A DNA stretch of 64,000 bases from Lentibacillus cibarius (GTDB lineage: Bacteria; Bacillota; Bacilli; Bacillales; Amphibacillaceae). The position numbers and the translations under genes are program-made. Below the pieces are notes generated by a model. It was not told the DNA's origin and searched no databases. It worked only from the letters and a program-made list of their open reading frames with translations. The stretch's first letter is position 1; every line of letters begins with the position of its first letter. Shown here piece by piece: positions 3,049 through 42,671 of this stretch. The stretch is taken from assembly GCF_005887555.1 (NCBI RefSeq), contig NZ_VCIA01000001.1, positions 806,001 through 870,000 on the forward strand. Reading direction: 5' to 3'.

Positions 3049-6000
3049 TTAATTTGATCCCACAGTTCAGATAAAACGCAAGCAATATGAAGAGTTGCTT
3101 GTCACGATTCATCTTTATATCCCTCTATGTTCAGATAAAACCTTGATAAACTCACCTGTCGTGTTATTCCGTATGACCTTTATATCCCACTATGTTCAGA
3201 TAAAACGCAGTCTACCCGCCAAACCATAAATGGTGTCCGATGTGCTTTATATCCCACTATGTTCAGATAAAACACTGAATTCCTGCACGGTATATTCAGT
3301 TTCTAGCTCCCTTTATATCCCACTATGTTCAGATAAAACATTTAACGCCAGAGTATCTAGTCAGGTTTAGTTACGATCTTTATATCCCACTATGTTCAGA
3401 TAAAACGGATGTATAGCTAGTTTTGTGTCACAAATGATAGTTAACTTTATATCCCACTATGTTCAGATAAAACATTCCTCGTGGTCCGGTTCCATTGCAG
3501 CGTCCTCTCCCTTTATATCCCACTATGTTCAGATAAAACGGTGGAACATATGTGATGGATTTGGGTGAGTTTTTACTTTATATCCCACTATGTTCAGATA
3601 AAACCCCGCTCCCTTCGTCCAGGACAGGTTTGTATGTTTCCTTTATATCCCACTATGTTCAGATAAAACAGGTTCCCCAAACGGCGTGGCTAGTCTTGAT
3701 TCGACCTTTATATCCCACTATGTTCAGATAAAACCACCGTGCCATTTGCGGGTGACTTGCAGGGATGTGTATCTTTATATCCCACTATGTTCAGATAAAA
3801 CAGAGATAAATGCATTAATTACCATATTTAATGAAAACTTTATATCCCACTATGTTCAGATAAAACGTTTGACCTTACGATGTCCGACACAACCAACACG
3901 CTCGCTTTATATCCCACTATGTTCAGATAAAACTAGAAATTATCTGCGTTGTCTGTCGGCATATAAATCTTTATATCCCACTATGTTCAGATAAAACGAA
4001 ATATCAATCGGTTCGATCGGCTTCCCGTTGTACTTTATATCCCACTATGTTCAGATAAAACTAAAGGGGTGAAGTCATGAGCAAGTGCATTGAATGCTTT
4101 ATATCCCACTATGTTCAGATAAAACTTAATCTATCCTTATCAAATTTTTTAAGTCTATATAGTCTTTATATCCCACTATGTTCAGATAAAACTCACTCAT
4201 ATGCTCGATATAGGACTGCACGGATGCCTTTATATCCCACTATGTTCAGATAAAACGATGGCAAGGTGTTCACTTGGGAAGATGGAGCAGACTTTATATC
4301 CCACTATGTTCAGATAAAACCCACCAGATAGATCAGCAGAACCGCCGCCATCTTTTCTTTATATCCCACTATGTTCAGATAAAACATTCATTGATAAAGA
4401 ACAGGACAATGTGATTCTTCCTTTATATCCCACTATGTTCAGATAAAACCACGGGCAAGAAATTTACCTGTGAGCGTTTGATTTCTTTATATCCCACTAT
4501 GTTCAGATAAAACGATTCCATACTCTCATTTTCAACATCCTTTCTAGCGCCTTTATATCCCACTATGTTCAGATAAAACTATGAATCTGATGGGATGCAG
4601 ATTGAAGCGACTTTCTTTATATCCCACTATGTTCAGATAAAACAAGCCGAGCAAGCAGACACACTGCAAAGCCAAATCGCTTTATATCCCACTATGTTCA
4701 GATAAAACCTGAATGGTGTGTTTGCTGACAACAAAGCAAATGACGACTTTATATCCCACTATGTTCAGATAAAACGCGCAGAATCCGCGGCCGCAGAAGG
4801 TAGCAGTGCTCTTTATATCCCACTATGTTCAGATAAAACACAGATTTTCGACATGATTGGCAACCTTGATTTATCTTTATATCCCACTATGTTCAGATAA
4901 AACGCAAGAGGCAGATGGATATTTGCAAACGTTGAAAGTTTCTTTATATCCCACTATGTTCAGATAAAACCCATTTGCCTTATCTTCAATGAGTTTAGCT
5001 CTTGCTTTCTTTATATCCCACTATGTTCAGATAAAACCCCGTTTCAAAACATTAGGGGCAAAACGTTATTTGGCTTTATATCCCACTATGTTCAGATAAA
5101 ACGTTGCTTCCCACTCTCCCCAGACTTTTTCGCGAATAGTCTTTATATCCCACTATGTTCAGATAAAACAGTTATTGACCCAGGTATTCGCGAAATCCTC
5201 AGATGTCTTTATATCCCACTATGTTCAGATAAAACTAAAATTCAAAAACAGAAAAAGGAGAGATGACTAAGCTTTATATCCCACTATGTTCAGATAAAAC
5301 TTTCGTATATGTTGCCAACCACTTCACAGTTTTCGTGCTTTATATCCCACTATGTTCAGATAAAACTGCAGTCCGGTGAATTGCATAAGATTTATCGCTC
5401 CGGGCTTTATATCCCACTATGTTCAGATAAAACAAAAAATAAATGCTATGTATTCATTAAATGGGGCAGCTTTATATCCCACTATGTTCAGATAAAACAA
5501 AATTCAAAAACAGAAAAAGGAGAGATGACTAAGCTTTATATCCCACTATGTTCAGATAAAACTTGCGATGCCGTCGTTCTTTGTGCGCTTTTCGTGCGTC
5601 TTTATATCCCACTATGTTCAGATAAAACAAACATTCTGTTATGTGTTGGCATAGTGGCGATGGTGACTTTATATCCCACTATGTTCAGATAAAACTCGTT
5701 TGTATGCAGGGGGCGCACCATCCGTTTTAACTTTATATCCCACTATGTTCAGATAAAACGAAAGTCTTTAAACGTTGATTCTTCCGAAATATCCGGCTTT
5801 ATATCCCACTATGTTCAGATAAAACAAAAAATAAATGCTATGTATTCATTAAATGGGGCAGCTTTATATCCCACTATGTTCAGATAAAACAAAATTCAAA
5901 AACAGAAAAAGGAGAGATGACTAAGCTTTATATCCCACTATGTTCAGATAAAACTCGTTTGTATGCAGGGGGCGCACCATCCGTTTTAACTTTATATCCC

Positions 6001-6668
6001 ACTATGTTCAGATAAAACAAAATTCAAAAACAGAAAAAGGAGAGATGACTAAGCTTTATATCCCACTATGTTCAGATAAAACCGATTCTCCTGTATCAGG
6101 ATCCGTTACTTCTTCACCCTTTATATCCCACTATGTTCAGATAAAACTGAATTGTACTATATCGAAACGAAAAACGCATAATCCGCTTTATATCCCACTA
6201 TGTTCAGATAAAACCGTCAACTCGACCTCTGCCTAATGCAGTTTGAGAATCTTTATATCCCACTATGTTCAGATAAAACATTACTGCCAACACGATGTCC
6301 CCCTTCTCATAGTGCTTTATATCCCACTATGTTCAGATAAAACAAGCCAATGGAATTTAATTCTTGAATGTGATGTATCTTTATATCCCACTATGTTCAG
6401 ATAAAACCTTTGTAATTGACTGGCTCCTTCGATGATTGCAATCTTTATATCCCACTATGTTCAGATAAAACTCTGAATATGGTCAGCGATATCCGCGCCA
6501 TCCTCTACCTTTATATCCCACTATGTTCAGATAAAACTCCTTGACCTGGTCTTGCTTACCCTTCGCCTGCCCTCTTTATATCCCACTATGTTCAGATAAA
6601 ACGATTTGAGTTGTTTGATTTCGTCGTCTGCTTTTCTGACTTTATATCCCACTATGTTCAGATAAAAC
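3049..6668 (-). CRISPR. Type I-B CRISPR array, about 56 repeats
   Basis: A 29-bp repeat (plus strand starts CTTTATATCCC, ends CAGATAAAAC) recurs about every 64-66 bp with 35-37-bp spacers; I count 56 repeats and 55 spacers. On the minus strand the repeat starts GTTTTATCTGAAC and ends GGATATAAAG, a type I-B-like sequence whose last 8 nt (ATATAAAG) would form the crRNA 5' handle. The two leftmost repeats are degenerate (3049-3077 strongly, 3113-3141 by one base), marking the old end; the repeat at 6640-6668 abuts the leader and cas2. Transcription is therefore leftward, with the cas genes. Three spacers occur more than once (5236-6053). Short ORFs crossing the array are artefacts of the repeat. 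Confidence 0.98.
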
Positions 6669-23155: not shown

Positions 23156-23791
23156 CTATACCACAAACCATTTATTCCTAATAGCCACTAGAGCTGCATT
23201 CGTTCTATTTGTTACATGAAGCTTTTTTAAAATTGATATCACATGGTTTTTCACTGTTTTGGACGATATAAATAAGTTTTCAGCTATCTTTTCGTTTTGA
23301 TTGCCCCTAACAATTTGCTCAAGTATTTCCCACTCTCTTTCAGTTAAAATTCCATTAGGACGCTTCACTTCCTTATAGGTTATCCTTAAATAGTCATCTA
23401 GAAGTATAGGGGACAGATGAGGATGAATATATCGTCGATTTTCCAGCATGTTATTTATAGCATAAATTAACTCGGTCGATTCCATTCCATTAAAGAAATA
23501 ACCTAAGAGCCCTAATTGAAATAACTGTGTCATCGTTTCATTTTCAACCTCAGAGACCCATACAGCTACTCTTTTCTCCAGTTTCAAACAATGTTTAATC
23601 AGTTCAAAAGCATTTATGTCTGAATCCATATCAATCACAATTAGATCAGCAGACTGCTCTTTTCCATAAAATGAATGAAGTTGTCTCGATCCATAAGTCG
23701 TCAATTTATGCCGTGGTAATTCTTGCTGCAAAACCTTTTGTATTCCATCCCGTAATATCCCTGGTTCTTTAATTAAAACAATGTTGCTCAT
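23156..23791 (-). CDS. LuxR/NarL-type response regulator with atypical receiver
   Basis: 211 residues: receiver-like domain (1-about 120) and LuxR helix-turn-helix (LTEREWEILEQIVRGNQNEK near 148-167, then SSKTVKNHVISILKKL). The phospho-acceptor position is present (IVID, D54), but the acidic pair that binds Mg2+ in DegU-like regulators is replaced by K8-E9-P10, so phosphorylation may be weak or absent. No histidine kinase is adjacent. It lies just beyond the terminator of the chemotaxis operon, same strand, and may regulate motility; this is inference. Confidence 0.75.
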   Translation of the reverse strand: MSNIVLIKEPGILRDGIQKVLQQELPRHKLTTYGSRQLHSFYGKEQSADLIVIDMDSDINAFELIKHCLKLEKRVAVWVSEVENETMTQLFQLGLLGYFFNGMESTELIYAINNMLENRRYIHPHLSPILLDDYLRITYKEVKRPNGILTEREWEILEQIVRGNQNEKIAENLFISSKTVKNHVISILKKLHVTNRTNAALVAIRNKWFVV

Positions 23792-23823: not shown

Positions 23824-23865
23824 AGGTGAATGAAAATGGTATGGAAACCGGGCTTTCATTCACCT
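23824..23865 (-). terminator. Terminator of the chemotaxis operon
   Basis: AGGTGAATGAAA (23824-23835) pairs perfectly with TTTCATTCACCT (23854-23865), about 20 nt after the stop of the first mcp. It separates the che operon from the LuxR-type gene. Confidence 0.75.
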
Positions 23866-23884: not shown

Positions 23885-25903
23885 CTAAAGCCGGAATTGC
23901 CGTACCAGTCCATTCAGCTCCTGAGCAAGTTTAGCCAAATCGGTCGCGCTTGAAGCAACTTCTTCCATGGAACTGCTTGTCTGTTGGGAGGATGCTGATG
24001 TCTGCTCAACCCCAGCGGCTGACTCTTCAGATACTGCTGCGATTTCCTGGATGGAACTGTTCATTTGCTGACTGTTCACAGCGATTTCCGACAGGTTTTC
24101 TGACACTGATTGAATGCTATTTACAACATTTGTAACCGCTTCTCGAATGTTTTCAAATTTTTTACCGGTTGTTTGAACTTGTTCGGTACCTTTTTCAACC
24201 TCGGTGTAACCTACCTGGAGCGAATCGGTTACAGCAGTAGATTCACTTTGGATATTCGACACGATAGTAGTAATATCCGTAACCGATTCAGCTACTTGCT
24301 CTGCCAGCTTTCGGACCTCATCGGCCACTACAGCAAATCCTTGACCATGTTCACCCGCCCGTGCTGCTTCAATAGCGGCATTCAGCGCCAACAAATTCGT
24401 CTGATCGGCTATATCCTTTATAACAGAAACCAGTTTGGAAATCTCTTGTGATTGAGTATCAAGTCCCTGCACCTTTTGTACAGCATCACTTACAATTCGA
24501 TCAATTCTTTCCATCTGAATACTGGAATTTTCCATTAACTGACTACCTTCCTCCGTCATACTTAACACATCATTTGACGACTGTTTTATCTGTTCGCCGT
24601 TTTCATTTGCTTCTTGGACCTTCGTCGTAAATGACGTCATCACAGAGGAAAGGTCACTGGAATTGTTTGCCTGCGTTTCGGACCCACTTGCCAATTCTTG
24701 CATGGTGGAAGCGATCTGTTCCGCACCAGACTTCACTTCACTAGCCGATTGCGTCAACTCCTCGCTTTGACTGCTGACTGTTTCTGATACCCGCCCAATC
24801 TGCTGAAGTAAGTCCCTCATTTGTTCGTTCATGTCATTTGATGCTGTTATCAATTGTCCAATTTCGTCATCCGTTTTCCTTTCAATTGGTTCCTGTGTCA
24901 GGTCACCACTGGCTATTGCTTTCATTCGTTCCACTACGGTTTGAATCGGATTCGATATTCGACGTGTTATCACAAGCGAAACAGCAATCGCCACTGCAAA
25001 GACGATGGCAAGAGTGATACCAATAGGCAAGAGAATAGCTTGTGCTTTATTCTCAAATTCGTTTTTGTTAATGATTCCACCAATAGTCCAACCAGTCGTC
25101 GGATTCTTGAAATATCCAATTAATTTATCTGTTCCATTAGATTGAAAATCGACTGTACCACGTTTTCCCGAATCGGAAATCGTCTGATAGTAAGACGTGT
25201 TTGATATGTCTTCACCAATCCGCTCTTTATCCGGGTGAGCCAAAAGACTTCCTGAATTATCAATTAGTACAGCATTACCTGTATCACCAACTTCAACCTT
25301 ATCAATCATACTAAACAGAAAGTCAACGGACACATCAGCACTTATAGCCCCCTTTAACTCGCCATCGTTATAGTAAGCTTGAGCCGCGCTGACGACTGTT
25401 TCACCTGAAGCTTTATCAATATATGGTTCCGTCCAAATAGTGTTCCCTTCAGCTTCCACAGCCTGCTTATACCATGGCCGTTCCCTTGGGTCGTAATCCT
25501 CTCCTAGGTCAGAATTTGGATAAATAATTGTTTCACCTGATTTCTCCATTCCGGTCAGAACATTTTTAATAGACTCATTTGCATCACCGGTGTCCTTAAA
25601 ATAGTCAAATAACACTTGCCTCTCTTCTGACTGATAATCCGTAAGTATTTCTTTGGAGGTAAGTCTACTAAGTGTGTTGTCTATATTACTAAAAAATAGT
25701 TCAAACGTATCATTCATGCCTGTCATCTGACTCTCAACGTTTCCGGACAGTTCCTCGGTAGTTAAGTTAACACTTGAATTATAGCTTATAAGTCCAACGA
25801 CACCACCAGTTATTAAGATTAAAATTAAAAACGGCACTAGAATCCTTAACTGAATGCTTCGGTTGAAAAAACGTCCTTTTTTCACTTTTTTTTCACTTGT
25901 CAT
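23885..25903 (-). CDS. Methyl-accepting chemotaxis protein 1 (dCache sensor)
   Basis: 672 residues: short basic cytoplasmic N-terminus, TM1 (about 22-42), an extracellular double-Cache domain with [16 protein letters not shown] and [20 protein letters not shown] typical of dCache_1, TM2 (about 290-312), HAMP, and a signalling tip with the invariant [20 protein letters not shown]. Such receptors bind amino acids or other small ligands and control CheA. The C-terminal tail has no CheR-tethering pentapeptide. It is the last gene of the operon. A close paralogue is at 32240-34258. Confidence 0.95.
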
Positions 25904-25946: not shown

Positions 25947-26303
25947 CTACAAGACTTTTTCCAAGGCTTCTTTAATCCGGTCTGCACTAAATGGCTTGAC
26001 AATAAAATCGTTGGCTCCTGCACGGATGGCTTCTAAAACCATTTCCTGCTGTCCCATAGCAGAGCACATAATGATTTTGACGTCTGAGTTCAGTTTTTTG
26101 ATTTCTTTCACCGCTTCTACACCATTCATCTCTGGCATCGTTATATCCATTGTTATTAGTTCAGGCTCTAATTCCTTATATTTTTCAACAGCATCCTGTC
26201 CATTCTCAGCTTCCCCGATAACCTCATGCCCAAGTTGAGTCAAATTGTTTTTTAGCTGCATGCGCATAAATGCCGCATCATCTGTCACAAGTATTTTCGT
26301 CAT
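25947..26303 (-). CDS. cheY: Chemotaxis response regulator CheY
   Basis: 118-residue single receiver domain with all key residues: D8-D9, phospho-acceptor D53 (ITMDITMPEMNG), S81 and K103 (FIVKPF). It carries the phosphate from CheA to the flagellar switch. Lies between cheW and mcp in the same operon. Full length. Confidence 0.96.
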   Translation of the reverse strand: MTKILVTDDAAFMRMQLKNNLTQLGHEVIGEAENGQDAVEKYKELEPELITMDITMPEMNGVEAVKEIKKLNSDVKIIMCSAMGQQEMVLEAIRAGANDFIVKPFSADRIKEALEKVL

Positions 26304-26316
26304 AGTACAATTCCTC

Positions 26317-26787
26317 CTATTCCACTTCTTCTTCAGCTGCTTCTTTCAATTCATTGACTTCTTCCAAATTTAAAATCTGATCCATTTCCAGTAAGATTAA
26401 TAGACTATCATCGAATTTGGCGACGCCTTTTATAAACGATTCATTGATTCCATTAATCACTTCCGGTGCCGGTTCAATCGTACTTGTATCAATATCCACG
26501 ACATCGGAAGCTTCATCGACGAGTAATCCAGCCTGTACATCTCCCATTTGCACAATTAGCATCCGCGTTCCCTTTTCACGTGATGTTTCACCAAGTCGCA
26601 GTCGCTGCTTTAAGTCAATAACGGGGGTAATTTCCCCACGCAAATTGACAACTCCTTTTATGAACTCTGATGTCCGCGGAATACTAGTTATGTTTTCCAA
26701 TTCCTCAATAGATAGCACTTCCATCACGTTAGCTCCATATTTTTGTTGATCCATCTGGAAAACAATTACTTTCATGGAATCTTCCAT
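26317..26787 (-). CDS. cheW: Chemotaxis coupling protein CheW (copy 1)
   Basis: 156 residues, two SH3-like subdomains, with VVNLRGEITPVIDLKQRL (residue about 49 onwards) as the family signature. It couples receptors to CheA. The ATG at 26787 (MEDSMKVIVFQ) follows GAGGAGG by six bases; the frame extends slightly upstream into cheA. A very similar copy lies at 34331-34792 next to the second mcp. Confidence 0.95.
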   Translation of the reverse strand: MEDSMKVIVFQMDQQKYGANVMEVLSIEELENITSIPRTSEFIKGVVNLRGEITPVIDLKQRLRLGETSREKGTRMLIVQMGDVQAGLLVDEASDVVDIDTSTIEPAPEVINGINESFIKGVAKFDDSLLILLEMDQILNLEEVNELKEAAEEEVE

Positions 26788-26798
26788 ACAAATCCTCC

Positions 26799-28820
26799 TC
26801 ATTTAATCAGTTCATTTGGGTCAATAATGAGCGACACTTGTCCATTACCTAATATCGTTGCACCTGAAATCGCGTACACATTTTTTAAATAGTTACCCAA
26901 TGACTTAAGAACAACTTCCTTTTTGCCAATAAACGAATCGACCATTAAACCGGTCATTTTATCGGCTTTTTTTATAATAACAACAGGTTGATAATTATTT
27001 TTATTCTCCACATCACTTTCTTGAACGTTGAATACATCCTGGAGTGAAACTAACGGAACAACTTTGCCGCGGAAATCCATTACCTTTTGCCGTTGGACGT
27101 GCATTATTTCTTTTTCTTCCAATAAAACCGTCTCAATAACGGAGGAAAGTGGAATGCCGTAGATTTCGTCCTGCACATGAACCAGCAACGTATTTAAAAT
27201 GGACAAGGTCAACGGCAACTGGATTGAAAATTTACTTCCTTTACCTGGTTCGGATTCCACATTAATATCCCCACCAAGCGCTTCGATTTTCATACGTACG
27301 GCGTCTAAACCAACACCGCGCCCCGAAATATCCGATACACTCTTCGCAGTACTAAACCCGGAAGCAAAGATGAATTGATAAACGTCTTCGTCCTTTAAAC
27401 TTTGGGAATGATCAGCGGACAATAATCCATTTTCAATTGCTTTATTAGCAACTTTTTCACGATTTATGCCTTCCCCGTCATCTTCTATTTCAATGAACAC
27501 ATGATTACCGCTATGATAAGACCTGAGCGTTAGGTTGCCTACTTCCGGCTTGCCATTTGCTAAGCGCTCTTCCGGTGACTCAATCCCATGATCAACAGAA
27601 TTTCGGATTAAATGAACAAGCGGATCACCAATTTCATCAATTACCGTTCTGTCAAGCTCCGTTTCTGCACCGACAATATTAAGATCAATTTTTTTATGTA
27701 AGTCCTTTGCTAGCCCTCGCACCATTCGTGGGAACCGATTAAAGACTTGTTCCACAGGCACCATACGCATCGTTAAAATAACACGCTGCATATCCTGCGA
27801 CACTCTAGCAATATGTTCGATGGTATCGGTTAGTTCCTGGTTTTTCAGCTGACTTGAGATATCCTCCAGTCGACCGCGATCAAGCACCAATTCCTCAAAC
27901 AAGTTCATCAAATGATCGATTCGGTCACTGCTGACTCGGATTGTCTTGGATGAAGCATGCTTGGATTTCTTTCCGGAAGCTTTTTCTTGTTCAGAGACAC
28001 TCTTATCAGATTCGGGCTGCGGACTTTTATGTTGCGATTTTTCTTCAGCTTGTTCCTCTTCAGGCGCTTCATTCCCGGCGTCAAACGCTACAATCGTCAC
28101 ATCATCAATCTCTGAAACAGTATGAATACGACTCTTGATTGATTCTGCTGATTCATTTGATAATAGAACAATTGAAAAGGACTGTTCAAAGGCTTCTGCT
28201 TCTAGTTCCTCAACCGTTGGAACCGATTTAATTACTTCGCCGAGCTTTTCCAACACTTCGAATACCATATAAACGCGTGCAGCCTTCAACATACAACCAT
28301 CCACAAGCTTCACGGTTATCTGAAAGGTACTATATCCCTGTTCCGCAGCTTGGTGAGCAACCGTCAACTGGTAGTCATCCAGTGCTAACTCGTTCATAAT
28401 CGTTGTTTCCTGTTTATTTCGTCCCCCTGATGATGTACCTGTCCCATTCTCAATCTGTTCAAGCTGTTGAACAAGACCACTGACATCTTTGCTTCCATCC
28501 TCCCCACTATTGATGGCACTGACCATTTCTTCTAAGTCTTCCAGCGCTTCCACTAATATATCAATGACTTGTTCCGAGACTGCCAGCTCGCTTTTCCGGA
28601 TTTTATCAAGCACATTTTCCATTTTATGTGTCAGGGACGCAATGTCATCGAATTCCATCGTCGCTGCCATCCCCTTCAATGTATGAGCCGAGCGAAAGAT
28701 CTCATCAACCAGGTCAAGATTGTCTGGCTGCTTTTCTAATTCAAGCAGATTATCGTTAATCGACTGGAGATGTTCATTACTTTCATCAAGAAAAATCTCC
28801 ATGTATTCATTTGTCTCCAT
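26799..28820 (-). CDS. cheA: Chemotaxis histidine kinase CheA
   Basis: 673 residues. Hpt domain with SAHTLKGMAATMEF (phosphoryl H near 47), P2 CheY-binding region, an acidic-polar linker (about 250-290), dimerisation helix pair, HATPase with HLIRNSVDHGIESPEER (N box) and DDGEGINREKVANKA, then ISGRGVGLDAVR (G1), and a C-terminal CheW-like domain. All catalytic boxes are present. Central kinase of this chemotaxis operon, between cheX and cheW. Confidence 0.96.
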   Translation of the reverse strand: METNEYMEIFLDESNEHLQSINDNLLELEKQPDNLDLVDEIFRSAHTLKGMAATMEFDDIASLTHKMENVLDKIRKSELAVSEQVIDILVEALEDLEEMVSAINSGEDGSKDVSGLVQQLEQIENGTGTSSGGRNKQETTIMNELALDDYQLTVAHQAAEQGYSTFQITVKLVDGCMLKAARVYMVFEVLEKLGEVIKSVPTVEELEAEAFEQSFSIVLLSNESAESIKSRIHTVSEIDDVTIVAFDAGNEAPEEEQAEEKSQHKSPQPESDKSVSEQEKASGKKSKHASSKTIRVSSDRIDHLMNLFEELVLDRGRLEDISSQLKNQELTDTIEHIARVSQDMQRVILTMRMVPVEQVFNRFPRMVRGLAKDLHKKIDLNIVGAETELDRTVIDEIGDPLVHLIRNSVDHGIESPEERLANGKPEVGNLTLRSYHSGNHVFIEIEDDGEGINREKVANKAIENGLLSADHSQSLKDEDVYQFIFASGFSTAKSVSDISGRGVGLDAVRMKIEALGGDINVESEPGKGSKFSIQLPLTLSILNTLLVHVQDEIYGIPLSSVIETVLLEEKEIMHVQRQKVMDFRGKVVPLVSLQDVFNVQESDVENKNNYQPVVIIKKADKMTGLMVDSFIGKKEVVLKSLGNYLKNVYAISGATILGNGQVSLIIDPNELIK

Positions 28821-28844: not shown

Positions 28845-29306
28845 TTAATCAAGTAATAAATAGACTGTCATATCACCTATATCGGTGAATGTGACCGTAA
28901 CATCAATCCCTTGCTTAAAACCCAAAATTTTCGTATTCCCTTGCATCATGGTAGGGGATGTGATGTTTAGCGAAATCCCTTCTGTAATGATATTAGTTGA
29001 AAGGCCGCCTGCGATCATATTTCCAAGTTCACCGCTAAAGGATATAAGCATTTCTCCTTCAAGTGACATGCCGTACATGGTTTCTCCAATCGCGCTAAAC
29101 ACCTCCGGATCGCCCGAAAGGACAAGTTTCCCCTGTATATCTCCGGTGATGCCAATCAATACCCCGTACTCAAGATGGAACTCTTTTGCCAATAATGTGG
29201 GTTTCTGTCGTGAATATTGCACAGGAACTACTGTATCAAGAGAAGTAAACGTGGCATTAAGTAGGTCAGTCACAGCTTTATTACGTTCGTTTGTTGTCAA
29301 TTGCAT
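28845..29306 (-). CDS. cheX: CheX-family CheY-P phosphatase
   Basis: 153 residues resembling CheX, which dephosphorylates CheY-P. The catalytic E-x-x-N motif appears as E93-L-G-N96 (SFSGELGNMIAGGLS), and the fold's beta strands (GVLIGITGDIQGKLVLSG) match. It lies between motB and cheA, consistent with signal removal within the same operon. No second ExxN motif as in CheC is seen. Confidence 0.85.
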   Translation of the reverse strand: MQLTTNERNKAVTDLLNATFTSLDTVVPVQYSRQKPTLLAKEFHLEYGVLIGITGDIQGKLVLSGDPEVFSAIGETMYGMSLEGEMLISFSGELGNMIAGGLSTNIITEGISLNITSPTMMQGNTKILGFKQGIDVTVTFTDIGDMTVYLLLD

Positions 29307-29311
29307 TATCT

Positions 29312-30106
29312 TTATCCCCTCTCATTCTTAGTTGAATCGCCTTCTTCTAAGTCAATGTCATAGTTTGGTAGTATGAGCAATTCCACCCGTCTGTTTTTGG
29401 CCATATTTTTTCCATTAGTATTGGGTGCAATTGGATGATGCTCACCATATCCTTTCGAGCTGAACCGTTCAGGATCCAATTGTTCATTTTTTAATAATAA
29501 CCGCATGAAGTTAATGGCTCGCATTGCGCTCAGCTCCCAATTCGATGAAAATTCACTGGTATGGATAGGACGGTTATCCGTATGTCCACTGACAATAATC
29601 TCGTGTGGCGGGTCGGTATATAAAAAATTAGACACTTCTCTAGCAACAGCTTTTCCTTTCGCTTTCACTTTCGCACTACCGGTATCAAATGATACATCAT
29701 TAAGGATCGTTATTAGCAGTCCTTCACCGGATAGAGTCGTTCCTATTACATCTGTTAACCCATTTTTACTAATGTAATCATTAATTTGCTTCTGCAAGTT
29801 CTGTAATTGTGTTAGCTCTGCCGCTCCTTTGTCTTTCTCGTTATCTTTCCTATTACTATCTCCCGTTTCCGCGGCCGGTCCCGTTGGTTCTTTGTCAATG
29901 GTACTGCTGTTGTTCTCCAACACCCCATTTCCTCCGCTAAGTTCACTATTAAATACTTGAACAAGCCTTTCGTATTTCTGGGCGTCGATTTCACTCATAG
30001 CAAACAACACAATAAATAACGCAACTAAAAGGGTCAACAAGTCAGAATATGGGAGCAGCCATGACTCACTCACATGTGGCCGATTACGCTGTTTCTTGTT
30101 CTTCAT
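29312..30106 (-). CDS. motB: Flagellar stator protein MotB
   Basis: 264 residues: basic N-terminus, one TM helix (SESWLLPYSDLLTLLVALFI) bearing the proton/sodium-binding aspartate D22, a plug/linker rich in polar residues, and an OmpA-like peptidoglycan-binding domain with SGHTDNRP and NRRVELLI. The TM segment resembles MotB rather than MotS, but ion specificity is not settled. Its start overlaps the motA 3' end by 23 nt, so translation is coupled. Confidence 0.94.
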   Translation of the reverse strand: MKNKKQRNRPHVSESWLLPYSDLLTLLVALFIVLFAMSEIDAQKYERLVQVFNSELSGGNGVLENNSSTIDKEPTGPAAETGDSNRKDNEKDKGAAELTQLQNLQKQINDYISKNGLTDVIGTTLSGEGLLITILNDVSFDTGSAKVKAKGKAVAREVSNFLYTDPPHEIIVSGHTDNRPIHTSEFSSNWELSAMRAINFMRLLLKNEQLDPERFSSKGYGEHHPIAPNTNGKNMAKNRRVELLILPNYDIDLEEGDSTKNERG

Positions 30107-30890
30107 CGTCTCCCTCCTGCATAATATCTGTCATTTCTTTTGACGATAGATATGAACTCAGCTTATCTTTAATCATGCGCGGCGAGTCCCCATTTGTGAT
30201 GGATAGTAATCCCTCAATCATAATCTGTTTAATTCGAACTTCATTCTCCGATTTCTCTTTCAACTTATTGGCAAACGGATGCCATAAGACATAACCTGAA
30301 AAGATCCCTAATAATGTGGCAATGAATGCTGCTGAAATTGCTTTCCCAAGTGCCTCGATATCGTTTAAGTCACTCAAAGCAGCAATGAGTCCGATTACAG
30401 CACCAAGTACTCCTAATGTGGGGGCATAGGTGCCTGCCTGCGTAAAAATAGCAATCCCTTTTTGGTGTCTTTCTTCCATAGCATCGATTTTTTCGATTAA
30501 TACTTCTCGAATGAAGTCAGGTGACTGACCGTCAACAGCCAATTGCAGACCGGAAGAAAGAAAAGTATCATTCACGTTGTCAATCTCTTTTTCCAGCCAT
30601 AGAAGTCCCTCGTTCCTTGTTATTTTCGCCCAGTGTTCAAATTGCTTAATAATCTCCTGCACATTATTTGTTTTTTCTTCAGTGAAAATGATTTTCAACA
30701 GGGTAGGAACTTTTGTTAATGTGTTCATTGGAAAAGCTATAAAAACAGAAGCTGCAGTACCTAGGAAAATAATCAACAGTGCTGCTGGATTTATTACAGC
30801 AGCAGGATTGACTCCTTTCAAAAACATTCCCACGCCAATTGCAATAAGTCCAAATACGATTCCAGTGATTGATGCTTTATCTACTTTCAA
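30084..30890 (-). CDS. motA: Flagellar stator protein MotA
   Basis: 268 residues with four TM helices, cytoplasmic loop carrying charged residues that contact FliG, and the family segment GTYAPTLGVLGAVIGLIAAL near 155-175 containing the conserved proline and glycines. Assembles 5:2 with MotB. It starts 7 nt after the EAL gene stop, so all three share one transcript beginning at the c-di-GMP riboswitch. Confidence 0.95.
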   Translation of the reverse strand: MKVDKASITGIVFGLIAIGVGMFLKGVNPAAVINPAALLIIFLGTAASVFIAFPMNTLTKVPTLLKIIFTEEKTNNVQEIIKQFEHWAKITRNEGLLWLEKEIDNVNDTFLSSGLQLAVDGQSPDFIREVLIEKIDAMEERHQKGIAIFTQAGTYAPTLGVLGAVIGLIAALSDLNDIEALGKAISAAFIATLLGIFSGYVLWHPFANKLKEKSENEVRIKQIMIEGLLSITNGDSPRMIKDKLSSYLSSKEMTDIMQEGDDEEQETA

Positions 30891-30897
30891 AACGTAA

Positions 30898-31629
30898 TTA
30901 CACCTGTCCTAACTTCCATAACTTTGGAATATAATAGTTTATTGGTTTAGGCCTGCCAAAGAAATATCCCTGCCCAAAAGAAACACCCAGCTCCTTCGCT
31001 TTCTGTAAATCCCCTTCGTTTTCAAAACCCTCTAAAATAACCTTTGTATCTCCGCCAAAAAGGTGAAGCATCAACCTAATTACTTGCTGTTTTTTAGGTG
31101 AATTTGCTAATCCATTTGTGAAATAACGACCAATCTTTGCAATATCCGGATTGATTTCCAAAATCGCCTTTAGCGTTGATTCGCCTTTACCTACATCATC
31201 CATTGCTATTAAAAAGCCTTCTTTTTTAATTTCTTTTATTACCTGGCCAAAAAGAGACAAATCAATATCCGAATGGGCTTCGTTTATTTCGAAAACAATA
31301 TTGTGAGCCTTTGTATCAATAATTGATTTCACTTTTTCCAGGAAGCTATAAAATGATGAATCCATTACTGTTATAGGAAAAACGTTAACACATATGTATA
31401 AATCACTTAATCCTTCCATTTCATTCTTTAAGCTGCTAATAGCTTTCATAATTGATTCCATGTCTGTAGCAACTAACTGGTTTTGTTCTTTCGCATATTC
31501 AAACAATAATTGTGGATCGTCGAACTCATCCGAACGAAGAAGCATTTCGAAACCGCAAATATCATTCGAAAATAAATTGATTATCGGTTGAACAACGTGA
31601 TAGTAATCCAATTCAGTTACTGTCCTCAT
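30898..31629 (-). CDS. EAL-domain c-di-GMP phosphodiesterase
   Basis: 243 residues, essentially a free-standing EAL domain without GGDEF or membrane segment. Metal/catalytic positions are all present: E28 (in ExLxR-like EMLLR), N82, E114, D144-D145 (DDVGKG), K165, E200/E203 (EGFE), and Q220 (GQGYFFGRP). It should hydrolyse c-di-GMP to pGpG. First gene of the operon with motA and motB and headed by a c-di-GMP-I riboswitch, suggesting feedback. The usual KID motif reads KIG and DDFGTG reads DDVGKG, so activity needs testing. Confidence 0.88.
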   Translation of the reverse strand: MRTVTELDYYHVVQPIINLFSNDICGFEMLLRSDEFDDPQLLFEYAKEQNQLVATDMESIMKAISSLKNEMEGLSDLYICVNVFPITVMDSSFYSFLEKVKSIIDTKAHNIVFEINEAHSDIDLSLFGQVIKEIKKEGFLIAMDDVGKGESTLKAILEINPDIAKIGRYFTNGLANSPKKQQVIRLMLHLFGGDTKVILEGFENEGDLQKAKELGVSFGQGYFFGRPKPINYYIPKLWKLGQV

Positions 31630-31759
31630 CTTTCATACCTCTTTTAATCTGTTTCTATAATATCTATCTGAATCTTTCCTTCTAAGGACCACCCCATACC
31701 ATTCATTTATACCCAGGACATAGCACCTATTTCCCAAAAAACTTCATACCATTAAACAC

Positions 31760-31795
31760 AAAAATTGGCTATTCTATAGTAGTTGAATAGCCAAT
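31760..31795 (-). terminator. Intrinsic terminator downstream of the c-di-GMP-I aptamer
   Basis: On the minus strand ATTGGCTATTC (arm at 31785-31795) pairs perfectly with GAATAGCCAAT (arm at 31764-31774), and the transcript continues with a short U-run. It lies between the aptamer and the EAL start, so it is the likely expression platform. Confidence 0.8.
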
Positions 31796-31824
31796 TAGTT
31801 TAAATAAAACTATCTAATTAAAAA

Positions 31825-31912
31825 ATTGGTAGCCAGGCGATCATGATGTATACTATTACATTTTAGACTCTTAGCTTTGCGTCCTACTCTTTCGATGTAG
31901 TTTGCCTTTTTC
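31825..31912 (-). promoter_or_regulatory. Cyclic-di-GMP-I (GEMM-I) riboswitch upstream of the EAL-mot-che operon
   Basis: Read on the minus strand: AAGGCAAACTA, then GAAA, then GGACGCAAAGCTA, a variable P1/P3 arm, and GCCTGGCTACC near the end. These are the conserved GEMM-I pieces (GGCAAAC, GAAA tetraloop, GGACGCAAAGC, and the tetraloop-receptor/GCCUGG arm). The aptamer is followed by an intrinsic terminator and then by the EAL gene. Ligand binding is inferred from the motif; direction of control (ON or OFF) is not established from sequence. Confidence 0.88.
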
Positions 31913-31952
31913 AATTGATTAAATTGTAATGGTATAAAGTTCCTATGGGCAT

Positions 31953-31982
31953 ATTATAAACGCTCTTGTCGACAAAAAGCAA
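31953..31982 (-). promoter_or_regulatory. Probable SigA promoter of the riboswitch-led operon
   Basis: On the minus strand TTGCTT (31982-31977) and TATAAT (31958-31953) are separated by 18 bp, about 40 bp ahead of the aptamer. The spacer contains the palindrome TTGTCGACAA (31966-31975), a possible operator. Confidence 0.5.
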
Positions 31983-34330: not shown

Positions 34331-34792
34331 CTATTCTTCAGCTGCCTGTTTCAACTCATTGACTTCTTCTAAATTTAAAATTTGATCCATTTTCAATAAG
34401 ATTAATAGACTGTTTTCCAGTTTGGCGACGCCTTGTATAAATGACTCGTTAACACCATTAATTACTTCCGGTGCCGGCTCAATCGTACTTGCATCAATAT
34501 CCATAACATCAGAAACATCGTCAACAAGTAACCCAGCCTTCACATCTCCCATTTCCACAATTAACATCCGTGTTCCCTTTTTGCGCTCCGTTTCTCCAAG
34601 CCGCAGCCGCTGCTTCAAATCAATAACAGGGGTGATCTCCCCACGTAAATTGACAACCCCTTTTATAAAGTCCGATGTCCGGGGTACGCTTGTGATACTT
34701 TCTAACTCTTCAATAGAGAGAACTTCCATAACACTAGCACCATATTTTTGCCCATTCATATGAAAGACAATCACTTTAATCGAATCACGCAT
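34331..34792 (-). CDS. Chemotaxis coupling protein CheW (copy 2)
   Basis: 153 residues, near-identical in layout to the first CheW and carrying VVNLRGEITPVIDLKQRL. AAAGGAGG precedes the ATG. It precedes mcp2 by about 70 nt and appears to be duplicated with it. Possible specialisation for the second receptor is unproven. Confidence 0.93.
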   Translation of the reverse strand: MRDSIKVIVFHMNGQKYGASVMEVLSIEELESITSVPRTSDFIKGVVNLRGEITPVIDLKQRLRLGETERKKGTRMLIVEMGDVKAGLLVDDVSDVMDIDASTIEPAPEVINGVNESFIQGVAKLENSLLILLKMDQILNLEEVNELKQAAEE

Positions 34793-34970: not shown

Positions 34971-34997
34971 ATATCGGCTAATATAACCATTTCATAA
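34971..34997 (-). promoter_or_regulatory. Possible SigD promoter for cheW2-mcp2
   Basis: The minus strand shows GCCGATAT (34978-34971), a perfect SigD -10, with TTAT (34997-34994) at the -35 spacing of 15 in place of TAAA. It would give a leader of about 170 nt. The poor -35 lowers confidence. Confidence 0.45.
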
Positions 34998-35053: not shown

Positions 35054-35090
35054 AAAAAAGCTATTCAAGAAAACAAGAATAGCTTAAAAA
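35054..35090 (-). terminator. Intrinsic terminator after the sigma-like gene
   Basis: AAGCTATTC (35059-35067) and GAATAGCTT (35077-35085) form a stem flanked by A/T-runs, about 70 nt beyond the stop of the 35157-35579 gene. Confidence 0.7.
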
Positions 35091-35156: not shown

Positions 35157-35579
35157 TCATCCAGCACCCCGATGATAATTATTTAGCAACCAATCATTCA
35201 GCAAAATATGGCCATACAGCCATTTCCATTGGTTGACCAAGAATCTCCTTTGAATGGCATGCCTGATAAACATGTTTTGTTGAGATTCGTTGTTAGTTTC
35301 AAGCATTGGAACAAGTTGCTGGCTAATGAAGTGTGGTGGCGATTGTTGCCTATGTAAATTAATTCCTATCCAGCGTTTCATGTTCGCTTCAGCAAATAAA
35401 GAAAATTCTCCTTCCCCTGCATCAAACGTCCTACATGCCTCCCATAGCCCAAAAATCGATTCCTGGATAACGTCCTCCTTCCAGTCATATAGTCCCATTT
35501 CCTGTGTAAAAAAATTTACCTTTTCCATGAACTGATCCGCAACAACGAAAGATGATTGCTCCAATTCCTTGCTCATCAT
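35157..35579 (-). CDS. Sigma-70-like region 2 protein, apparently C-terminally truncated
   Basis: 140 residues. QESIFGLWEACRTFDAGEGE followed by FSLFAEANMKRWIGINL corresponds to the region 2 of sigma-70 family factors. The C-terminus QWKWLYGHILLNDWLLNNYH resembles the beginning of a region 4 helix-turn-helix that then stops early, so region 4 seems lost. If truncated by mutation it is a pseudogene; alternatively a short anti-sigma-like or phage-type factor. AAGGGTG precedes the ATG pair. Confidence 0.55.
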   Translation of the reverse strand: MMSKELEQSSFVVADQFMEKVNFFTQEMGLYDWKEDVIQESIFGLWEACRTFDAGEGEFSLFAEANMKRWIGINLHRQQSPPHFISQQLVPMLETNNESQQNMFIRHAIQRRFLVNQWKWLYGHILLNDWLLNNYHRGAG

Positions 35580-40368: not shown

Positions 40369-42063
40369 TTAAAGCTTAAAACTTCGAACTAATCCTTTAA
40401 GACCCTCCGCTAATTTAGCAAGGTCATCTGCGCTGGAAGCAACCCCCTCCATCGAGCTAGTTGTTTGTTGAGAAGATGCGGATGTTTGTTCAACTCCTGC
40501 AGCGGACTCCTGGGAAACGGATGCAATCTCCTGAATGGAACTATTCATTTGTTGACTGGTCGCGGAGATTTCAGATAAATTTTCGGATACCGTTTCAATA
40601 CTATTGACGACATCCGTTATAGCTTCACTAATGCCATCAAACTTCTCACCAGTCGAGTTAATTTGTTTTGTTCCTTTATCTGCTTCCTTATAGCCTTCTT
40701 GTAAAGAATTGGCTACTGAGCCTGTTTCAATTTGGATATTACTTACAATACCAGTAATATCCGTCACGGACTCAGAAACTTGTTCTGCCAGTTTTCTTAC
40801 CTCATCAGCAACTACAGCAAATCCTTTGCCATGTTCACCGGCTCTAGCAGCTTCGATTGCTGCATTTAAAGCTAATAGGTTGGTCTGGTCAGCAATGTCT
40901 TTAATAACAGAAACGAGCTTGGAAATGTCTTGTGAATGTGCATCCAATCCTTGAACCTTTTGAAAAGCATCTTGTACGATACTATCTATTTTTTCCATCT
41001 GGTTCTTAGAATCGTTCATCAATTGGCTACCTTCATCTGTCATACGAAGTACAGTAGTAGAAGCTTGGTGTATCTGTTCACCATTTTCGTTGGCTTCTTG
41101 CACTCGTGTCGTGAACGTTGACATGGCTGAAGATAATTCACTTGAGCTATTCGCTTGTGTTTCTGAACCGGATGCTAGTTCCTGCATCGTAGTCGCAATT
41201 TGTTCAGACCCTAATTTCACTTCATTGGCAGATTGCGTTAACTCTTCACTTTGGCTGCTTACCATTTCAGAAACTTGATTGATTTGATTTAAAAGATCAC
41301 GCATATTTGTATTCATTTCGTTTGTCGCTGTGACTAATTGTCCCACCTCATCCTCTGATTTGGTTTCAAGTAAATCGTGTGTTAAATCGCCATTCGAAAT
41401 AAGCTTCATTCGATTCATAACAGCTTTTATTGGATTGGAGATAATTCGGGCGGTAATAATAGCCGTGATAATACCTAGAACAACTATTAAAGCGGATGTA
41501 ATCACCACAGTAAGTACAGTAGTTTTCGCATTGGCCGTCATTTCTTCCCCTATCTTTTTTATCTCGGCTTCCCTTTGATTAGCAAGGGATTTAAATTCAT
41601 CTATTAATTCATTTCCCATTGGTTGTACATCGTTTTGCATCACTTCCATTGCACTTTCAATATTCCCATTTTCATACTTTGCAATCACCTTATCAGTTAG
41701 CTTACCCCACTCGGTTTTCTTATCTATCAACTTTTGCAACTGATTAGAATTACTAATTTCAAGCGCTTTATTCTCTAATTTTATATTTTCGTCTATACCA
41801 GCATTAAATTCTTTTTTATAGGCATTATCTTTATACAATAATAACCCACGCAACAGACTTGTTCTTTTCGTCATGTTATTGGCAAGGTTCTCATCAGTAA
41901 TTAATAAGCTAATTTCTTTGTTTATCATATTTTGCATACTACTGTTTGTTTTTTGTAAAGCGTATATGTTATATACACTTAATAAAACAACCAATACAAG
42001 GATAATACTAAACCCGAATAGTACCTTAGTTGTAATCCGTTTAAATTTTAGTAACCCTTTCAT
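40369..42063 (-). CDS. Methyl-accepting chemotaxis protein 3 (4HB sensor)
   Basis: 564 residues: TM1 (about 12-30), a four-helix-bundle ligand domain (about 32-185) instead of dCache, TM2 (about 186-208), HAMP, then the signalling domain with [20 protein letters not shown]. The signalling half resembles the two other receptors. Transcribed behind its own c-di-GMP-I riboswitch and terminator. Confidence 0.93.
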
Positions 42064-42270: not shown

Positions 42271-42301
42271 AAAAAGGCTATTCAATAGTTATTGAATAGC
42301 C
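42271..42301 (-). terminator. Intrinsic terminator of the second riboswitch
   Basis: GGCTATTCAAT (42276-42286) and ATTGAATAGCC (42291-42301) form a perfect stem with a 4-nt loop, followed on the minus strand by U5. It lies between the aptamer and mcp3. Confidence 0.82.
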
Positions 42302-42334
42302 AAAATCAAAATAATATGCATCATATTAAAAATA

Positions 42335-42423
42335 GTGGCAGCCTGGCGATCATTATACACGGCGCATGTGTATAGTAGACCCATTAGCTTTGCGTCCTAT
42401 CCTTTCAGATAGTTTGCCTTTTT
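42335..42423 (-). promoter_or_regulatory. Cyclic-di-GMP-I (GEMM-I) riboswitch upstream of mcp3
   Basis: Minus strand contains AAGGCAAACTAT, GAAA, GGACGCAAAGCTAATGG and CGCCAGGCTGCCAC in the right order and spacing for GEMM-I. The core pieces match those of the riboswitch at 31825-31912, while the P1/P3 arm differs. A perfect terminator hairpin follows. mcp3 is the first gene downstream (start 42063). A TATAAT-like -10 is at 42472-42467. Confidence 0.88.
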
Positions 42424-42671
42424 CTTTATTATTTTTGTAGGAAAAAAACACCATTACCCATGGACTATTATAGTGTAATAAACTTCTTCTTCTTAAATCA
42501 ACAAGATTTCTAAAGTCTATATTTTTCGATATTTTATACGATAACATTCAACTACATAAATATTGGGGAACAGCTCATTGGTATAGTAAAACTAATTAAC
42601 AGCAGCAAATAAAAAAACAGGAGACCGAAACAGTTATCAGCCTCCTGCGATTCAATCTATTAACCTCGAAA
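42424..42671. other. Promoter region of riboswitch-led mcp3
   Basis: About 250 bp between the aptamer and the end of the ABC ATPase gene. A TATAAT (42472-42467, minus) is the best -10; no convincing -35 was found. Nothing else was recognised. Confidence 0.35.

Follow-up and report, generated by a model that had tools for sequence, protein, structure and literature searches.

The riboswitch and the operon behind it

What is a c-di-GMP riboswitch doing in front of an operon that begins with a gene for a probable c-di-GMP phosphodiesterase and continues with stator and chemotaxis genes? The locus lies in a 64,000-nt stretch of the Lentibacillus cibarius genome (the window hereafter; NZ_VCIA01000001.1, positions 806,001 to 870,000). 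The initial annotation had recognised pieces of a GEMM-I core on the minus strand at 31825-31912. The covariance-model search proposed there as a check agrees with this: RF01051 matches at 31825-31916 (minus strand) with 70.3 bits (E 9.7e-12; gathering score 35), and model positions 1-87 of 87 are aligned. Our own covariance model (R1) gives this aptamer 76.5 bits, a score to be read with the fact that the aptamer is a training member of R1. Both the covariance-model alignment and an alignment of 25 aptamers place in it the ligand-contacting core GGCAAAC, GACGCAAAG and terminal CC, which we take to be the c-di-GMP contact positions of the GEMM-I core; one base of the conserved CC presumably pairs with the ligand guanine, as in the Vc2 structure. 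Judged by its sequence, the element is a riboswitch whose class is known and whose location is unusual and recurrent, and it would be expected to respond to c-di-GMP.

The operon was checked by ORF list, Pfam and NCBIfam. It comprises, all on the minus strand, genes for a stand-alone EAL protein of 243 a.a., probably a c-di-GMP phosphodiesterase (30898-31629; PF00563, 113 bits, cut-off 31.3), motA (30084-30890; NF005997, 392 bits, cut-off 340), motB (29312-30106; NF005831, 316 bits, cut-off 301), cheX (28845-29306; PF13690, 46 bits, cut-off 27), cheA (26799-28820; Pfam), cheW (26317-26802; PF01584), a cheY-type receiver (25947-26303; PF00072) and a dCache methyl-accepting chemotaxis protein (mcp, 23885-25903; PF02743 and PF00015). 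MotA and MotB both exceed the NCBIfam equivalog cut-offs, and the stator they form is presumably H+-coupled. The gaps are 7 nt (EAL/motA), 5 nt (motB/cheX), 24 nt (cheX/cheA), 13 nt (cheW/cheY) and 43 nt (cheY/mcp, the largest from EAL through mcp), with overlaps of 23 nt for motA/motB and 4 nt for cheA/cheW; EAL through mcp are probably co-transcribed. Gene order and short spacing are thus as first annotated, except that seven genes, not eight, follow EAL. The end of the operon is less clear than had been assumed: the hairpin after mcp (23824-23865, minus strand), which had been called the terminator, has no U tract, making it a doubtful one, and we did not accept it as the certain end. A luxR-type regulator 93 nt beyond mcp (23156-23791, minus strand; PF00196) may therefore share the transcript as a ninth member. 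There is a terminator-like site 3' of luxR at 23072-23051, and luxR homologues are found in or beside the CheA clusters of several relatives.

The CheA of this operon is the only one found in the genome, a point absent from the initial annotation. CheW-domain matches number three, all in the window: the operon's CheA, its CheW, and a second CheW at 34331-34792. The flagellar operon of this genome has the order flhA-flhF-flhG-cheB-cheC-cheD-sigD and lacks cheA and cheW; only 41 nt separate cheB from cheC, at the site where relatives have cheA and cheW. The window's CheA has neither the cheB-cheA-cheW-cheC context of a classic fla/che CheA nor a place in the fla clade. A second stator, MotPS, adjoins ccpA, and no R1 match to a c-di-GMP-I riboswitch was found in the 16-kb stretch surrounding it. 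Among c-di-GMP-related domains, the genome has eight GGDEF matches, seven EAL matches (in both cases two are fragments of a single interrupted gene) and three PilZ matches. One of the PilZ proteins is 216 a.a. long, presumably similar in size to the motor brake of B. subtilis.

The whole genome (3 contigs, 99% complete) holds four RF01051 aptamers, two of them in the window. Of the two outside, one precedes a Spo0E-like gene with a CheY-type receiver next in line, and the other, which has an altered 3' end, precedes another CheY-type receiver; with the EAL operon and a chemoreceptor as the remaining targets, chemotaxis or CheY-type genes follow all four. One CheY-type gene has an aptamer (L004, 1501-1582) that lost its 3' CC and behind which no terminator was found; it may be a decayed riboswitch.

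Several other elements of the window deserve mention. The second riboswitch (aptamer 42334-42428, minus strand, 71.3 bits to RF01051) is located 10.4 kb upstream of the first, has a terminator of the same GGCTATTC..GAATAGCC family (42276-42302, minus strand) and precedes the gene for a 4HB-type chemoreceptor (40369-42063, minus strand). A third copy of the platform hairpin (35060-35083, minus strand) follows a small sigma-like gene and precedes cheW2-mcp2. We considered a decayed third aptamer at this place and rejected it, as a filter-off model search of 20000-48000 gave nothing above noise there. The sigma-like gene (35157-35579) encodes 140 a.a., whose match to sigma-70 region 2 falls short of the cut-off (22.2 versus 24 bits); weak homologues occur beside motility genes in genomes G050 and G044, and in G050 (L150) a complete riboswitch follows the homologous gene. 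About 180 nt before cheW2, at 34971-34978, is the word GCCGATAT, which we take to be a sigma-D-type -10 word; four such words in the window versus 1.8 expected make it weak evidence. The window also has a CRISPR array at 3113-6668, in which 55 direct repeats, spaced by about 65 nt, match CRISPR-DR43 (RF01352), and a match to the small RNA BsrC (RF01410; 46006-46093, minus strand, 67.6 bits).

Predicted switching of the leader

Upstream of the aptamer is a promoter-like sequence on the minus strand (31953-31982), with a weak -35 (TTGCTT, 31982-31977), an 18-nt spacer and a perfect -10 (TATAAT, 31958-31953). It is not among the matches of our consensus promoter scan, which overall showed no excess of promoter-like sites (33 found versus 32.9 expected). 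Four of the 13 motA-type leaders carry 11 of 12 matches to TAAA-N14..16-GCCGATAT, presumably the sigma-D consensus; the best score in the window's leader is 9 of 12, reached by 23.5% of its shuffles, and for this leader we do not claim a sigma-D promoter acting as an AND gate.

Folding of the leader predicts three mutually exclusive pairings (all on the minus strand). In P1, AATTGAAAAA (31907-31916) pairs with TTTTTTAATT (31816-31825, read 31916-31907 with 31825-31816). In the antiterminator, CCAATT (31824-31829), which includes the conserved CC of the aptamer, pairs with 31796-31791, and an inner stem is added. The third is an intrinsic terminator at 31763-31796 (12-bp stem formed by 31796-31785 with 31774-31763, 10-nt loop, U-rich tail, -14.0 kcal/mol), situated 133 nt before EAL. 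The perfect hairpin of the initial annotation is thus real as a predicted structure, and the aptamer, terminator and antiterminator fold as alternatives of the OFF type, with the terminator between aptamer and gene and the antiterminator excluded by P1 (a statement about folding only). The pairing of the CC with the 5' arm of the terminator has a probability of 0.97 (shuffled mean 0.06), and 0.99 in the second riboswitch of the window. The pattern GCTATTC-N3..14-GAATAGC occurs three times in the window (0.03 expected).

For a transcript cut before the 3' arm of the terminator, the antiterminator ensemble (-26.0 kcal/mol) is lower in energy than the P1 ensemble (-23.8 kcal/mol). For the finished leader the best fold combines P1 with the terminator (-35.0 kcal/mol, versus -29.2 kcal/mol for the best antiterminator fold); the decision would thus have to be kinetic, since these energies favour the terminator even without ligand. 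The antiterminator takes the conserved CC and part of the 3' strand of P1, so ligand binding should favour termination.

We consider it probable that the class I riboswitch is of the transcriptional OFF type and controls the EAL-motAB-cheXAWY-mcp operon, and plausible that EAL adds a positive feedback. At low c-di-GMP, the nascent leader would form the antiterminator (CCAATT with AATTGG) and the polymerase would read through, so that the cell would make the EAL protein, the MotAB stator and its single detected CheA. At high c-di-GMP, ligand and P1 would hold the 3' end of the aptamer, the terminator would fold and the operon would be silent. If the EAL protein degrades c-di-GMP, its coupling to an OFF switch gives a double-negative, that is positive, feedback, which would sharpen or lock the motile state; the initial annotation had given no sign for the loop. 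The OFF state should lose chemotaxis and MotAB and not necessarily all rotation, given that no c-di-GMP-I riboswitch was found near MotPS. c-di-GMP is a 'settle down' signal, and one RNA may turn off steering as the cell settles. Should the loop work, RNA sensing and enzymatic erasure of c-di-GMP would be combined in one transcript that also decides the presence of the chemotaxis kinase, a compact and testable case of riboswitch-based bistability in motility.

The EAL protein and the possible feedback

The feedback depends on the EAL protein being an active enzyme. E28, N82, E114, D144, D145, K165, E200 and Q220 are invariant across 16 aligned proteins including that of the window; these (E, N, E, D, D, K, E, Q) we take to be the eight metal-binding and catalytic residues of the RocR list, with a spacing that presumably fits RocR. 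The nearest solved chains are the EAL proteins Bd1971 and Lmo0131. It is thus likely, by sequence, that the protein hydrolyses c-di-GMP. Two exchanges set it apart from its homologues: Asp167, two residues after the catalytic Lys (K-x-D motif), is Gly here and Asp in all 15 other aligned homologues, and the near-invariant Ser86 is Ile. The loop through c-di-GMP degradation proposed in the initial annotation is therefore plausible and no more, with the eight catalytic residues speaking for it and the loss of Asp167 against it.

In another reading the leader is an OFF switch, but the EAL protein has no phosphodiesterase activity: it might bind c-di-GMP, or act as a protein partner at the motor or receptor array, and there would be no enzymatic feedback. 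A precedent exists in an EAL protein that, according to the accessible part of its description (PMC5579053), regulates flagella and chemotaxis independently of phosphodiesterase activity. The unique Gly at position 167 fits this reading, as does a second copy of the locus in G044, where the EAL frame is broken and motA and motB are full length; the invariance of all eight catalytic residues in the 16 proteins speaks against it, and on balance we consider it rather unlikely.

EAL genes are also found behind this riboswitch elsewhere. Among the best 30 EAL loci in the family, nine have the riboswitch upstream of EAL; three of these lead into motA (G000, G044 and G045), and six are other loci. 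In three of the six (G069, G117 and G107), stretches of 16-17 kb around EAL showed neither stator genes nor cheA beside it; for the others (G012, G082 and G016) the flank viewed was 1.5 kb.

Recurrence in related genomes

In the 159 genomes of the family, an EAL homologue (E up to 1e-20) was detected in 73, RF01051 in 120 and CheA (E up to 1e-50) in 145. A tree of 34 CheA proteins separates 25 encoded outside fla/che ('mot') from nine fla/che proteins with 100/100 support; the window's CheA is of the mot type. We collected 42 CheA clusters outside fla/che (the best-scoring ones, not a random draw; 25 of them appear in the tree, and the label of the remainder comes from neighbouring genes alone), a few of which (e.g. 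G068, G082, G086, G065 and G155) have neither motAB nor cheX beside CheA in the stretch fetched. Counting a riboswitch if it lies within 250 nt of a cluster gene, we observed one at 17 of the 42 clusters and at none of the nine fla/che loci. It precedes EAL-motA in G000 and G044, motA or luxR-motA in G156, G010, G092, G091, G095 and G101, cheX in G044, G062, G016, G095, G101, G058, G096, G010, G125, G097 and G093, luxR-cheX in G078, and a shortened cheA in G050. No riboswitch was found at the cluster in the other 25, which include G155 (near a contig end) and G157 (region before motA not fetched); among them, G068 has a riboswitch before a cheX that is separate from cheA; in G104 one precedes an MCP gene behind the cluster. 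Outside the 42 clusters, riboswitches were found in G045 (EAL-motA, in an operon truncated by the contig end), in the second, degenerate G044 copy, and before motA in G048 and G053. Within the genus, G044 has both types of CheA, G000 the mot type only, and G048 and G053 the fla type only. Recurrence in relatives, which the initial annotation did not include, also supports riboswitch and operon layout as annotated there; the feedback stays at plausible.

The expression platform was compared across 32 leaders at chemotaxis, stator or EAL-motA genes (own genome and relatives), kept from a set of 44 in which a stricter terminator finder reports a terminator in 30. The 12 leaders left out belong to EAL-only genes, to genes of other kinds or to unclear targets; seven of them have no terminator by the stricter finder, and some may act on translation. 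A terminator is present in 31 of the 32 leaders, and in these 31 the pairing between the CC of the aptamer and the 5' arm of the terminator has a mean probability of 0.64, versus 0.08 in shuffles (60 mononucleotide shuffles per leader of the stretch that begins at the CC and ends at the 3' arm of the terminator). The probability is above 0.5 in 21 leaders and at most 0.17 in ten, e.g. 0.03 for EAL in G044, 0.00 for motA in G048 and G053, and 0.03 for a cheY leader of the own genome. Some of these ten use a different platform, and the scripted choice of the CC may be off for at least two.

We also searched 397 genomes of the order for the platform motif CCAA-N5..30-TTGGCTATTC-N3..15-GAATAG without regard to the aptamer. 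It matched in nine genomes (a lower bound, as only exact matches count; the reverse-pattern control gave 0). The match in the own genome was not counted, the terminator there being read on the opposite strand. The other eight, from four other families of the order, all lie directly behind a c-di-GMP-I aptamer (8/8), and the next gene is motA (G205), cheX (G493 and G347), an MCP gene (G507 and G513) or one for an unidentified protein (G236, G341 and G197). A shared expression platform thus recurs across genera and families.

There are two further readings of the leader. The leader may bind c-di-GMP with little effect on expression, another promoter, read-through or a masking structure dominating. 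The 133 nt between terminator and EAL and the weak promoter calls suit such a leader, and Bc1 of the B. cereus group, in the available portion of its report (PMC11218506), binds c-di-GMP without a response in vitro or in the cell; a platform kept behind aptamers across genera and families argues against it, and we regard it as improbable. An ON switch, with EAL providing negative feedback (homeostasis), likewise seems improbable: class I Bc2 of the same group is reported as ON (PMC6366702, as excerpted), as is Bc1 in a reporter (PMC11218506), and the terminator is in the best finished-leader fold without ligand, but ligand should oppose an antiterminator built from the conserved CC and a portion of the 3' strand of P1, and turning on motility genes at high c-di-GMP is contrary to the usual logic. 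Against the preferred reading, an OFF switch with possible feedback through EAL, stand the ten of 31 leaders failing the antiterminator test, the loss of Asp167, the 25 of 42 clusters without a riboswitch and the lack of a recognised strong promoter.

As a broader and more tentative proposal, perhaps not quite as likely to be right as wrong, chemotaxis in several lineages would have come to rest on a CheA encoded away from the flagellar operon, within a module that is gated by RNA and headed in this genus by a c-di-GMP-degrading enzyme. Riboswitch, enzyme, stator and kinase would then make a self-reinforcing, possibly bistable switch between motile and sessile states, and the riboswitch with its GGCTATTC platform would have moved as a cassette among motA, cheX, mcp and EAL genes.

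Comparison with known systems

The riboswitch class and its logic are already known. The apparent novelty lies in the targets: a single RNA gate, with an expression platform that other genera and families share, stands before the genome's one detected CheA, MotAB and a probable phosphodiesterase. Among the literature matches listed (titles and abstract starts, with most subscription papers outside the scope), there is no description of this circuit or of a c-di-GMP riboswitch before motAB or cheXAWY.

The B. subtilis fla/che operon has the order cheB-cheA-cheW-cheC-cheD-sigD, which is also present in relatives of L. cibarius. The genome studied here has the flhF-flhG-cheB-cheC-cheD-sigD order in common with B. 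subtilis but is without cheA and cheW there, and the window's CheA belongs to a clade apart from the nine fla-type CheA proteins (100/100 support).

Class I switches of C. difficile are of the OFF type according to the accessible text, and flgB is under the control of one (PMC6366702); at one class I locus the gene rose with c-di-GMP, which was ascribed to its promoter (PMC6200980). The switch of the window resembles the C. difficile Cd1 (Cdi-1-3) of the flgB operon in having a class I aptamer, ligand-induced termination (predicted here) and a motility operon as target (PMC6366702 and PMC6200980, as far as excerpted). The targets themselves differ: early flagellar genes for Cd1, and the stator, the chemotaxis kinase and an EAL gene here. 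Bc1 of the B. cereus group stands before MCP genes, with no clear c-di-GMP response in the part of the report at hand (PMC11218506), and so has a chemotaxis gene as target like the second riboswitch of the window. According to the same source, however, Bc1 has a double terminator, whereas one terminator was found in the leader described here, whose target is an operon of eight genes, or nine with luxR.
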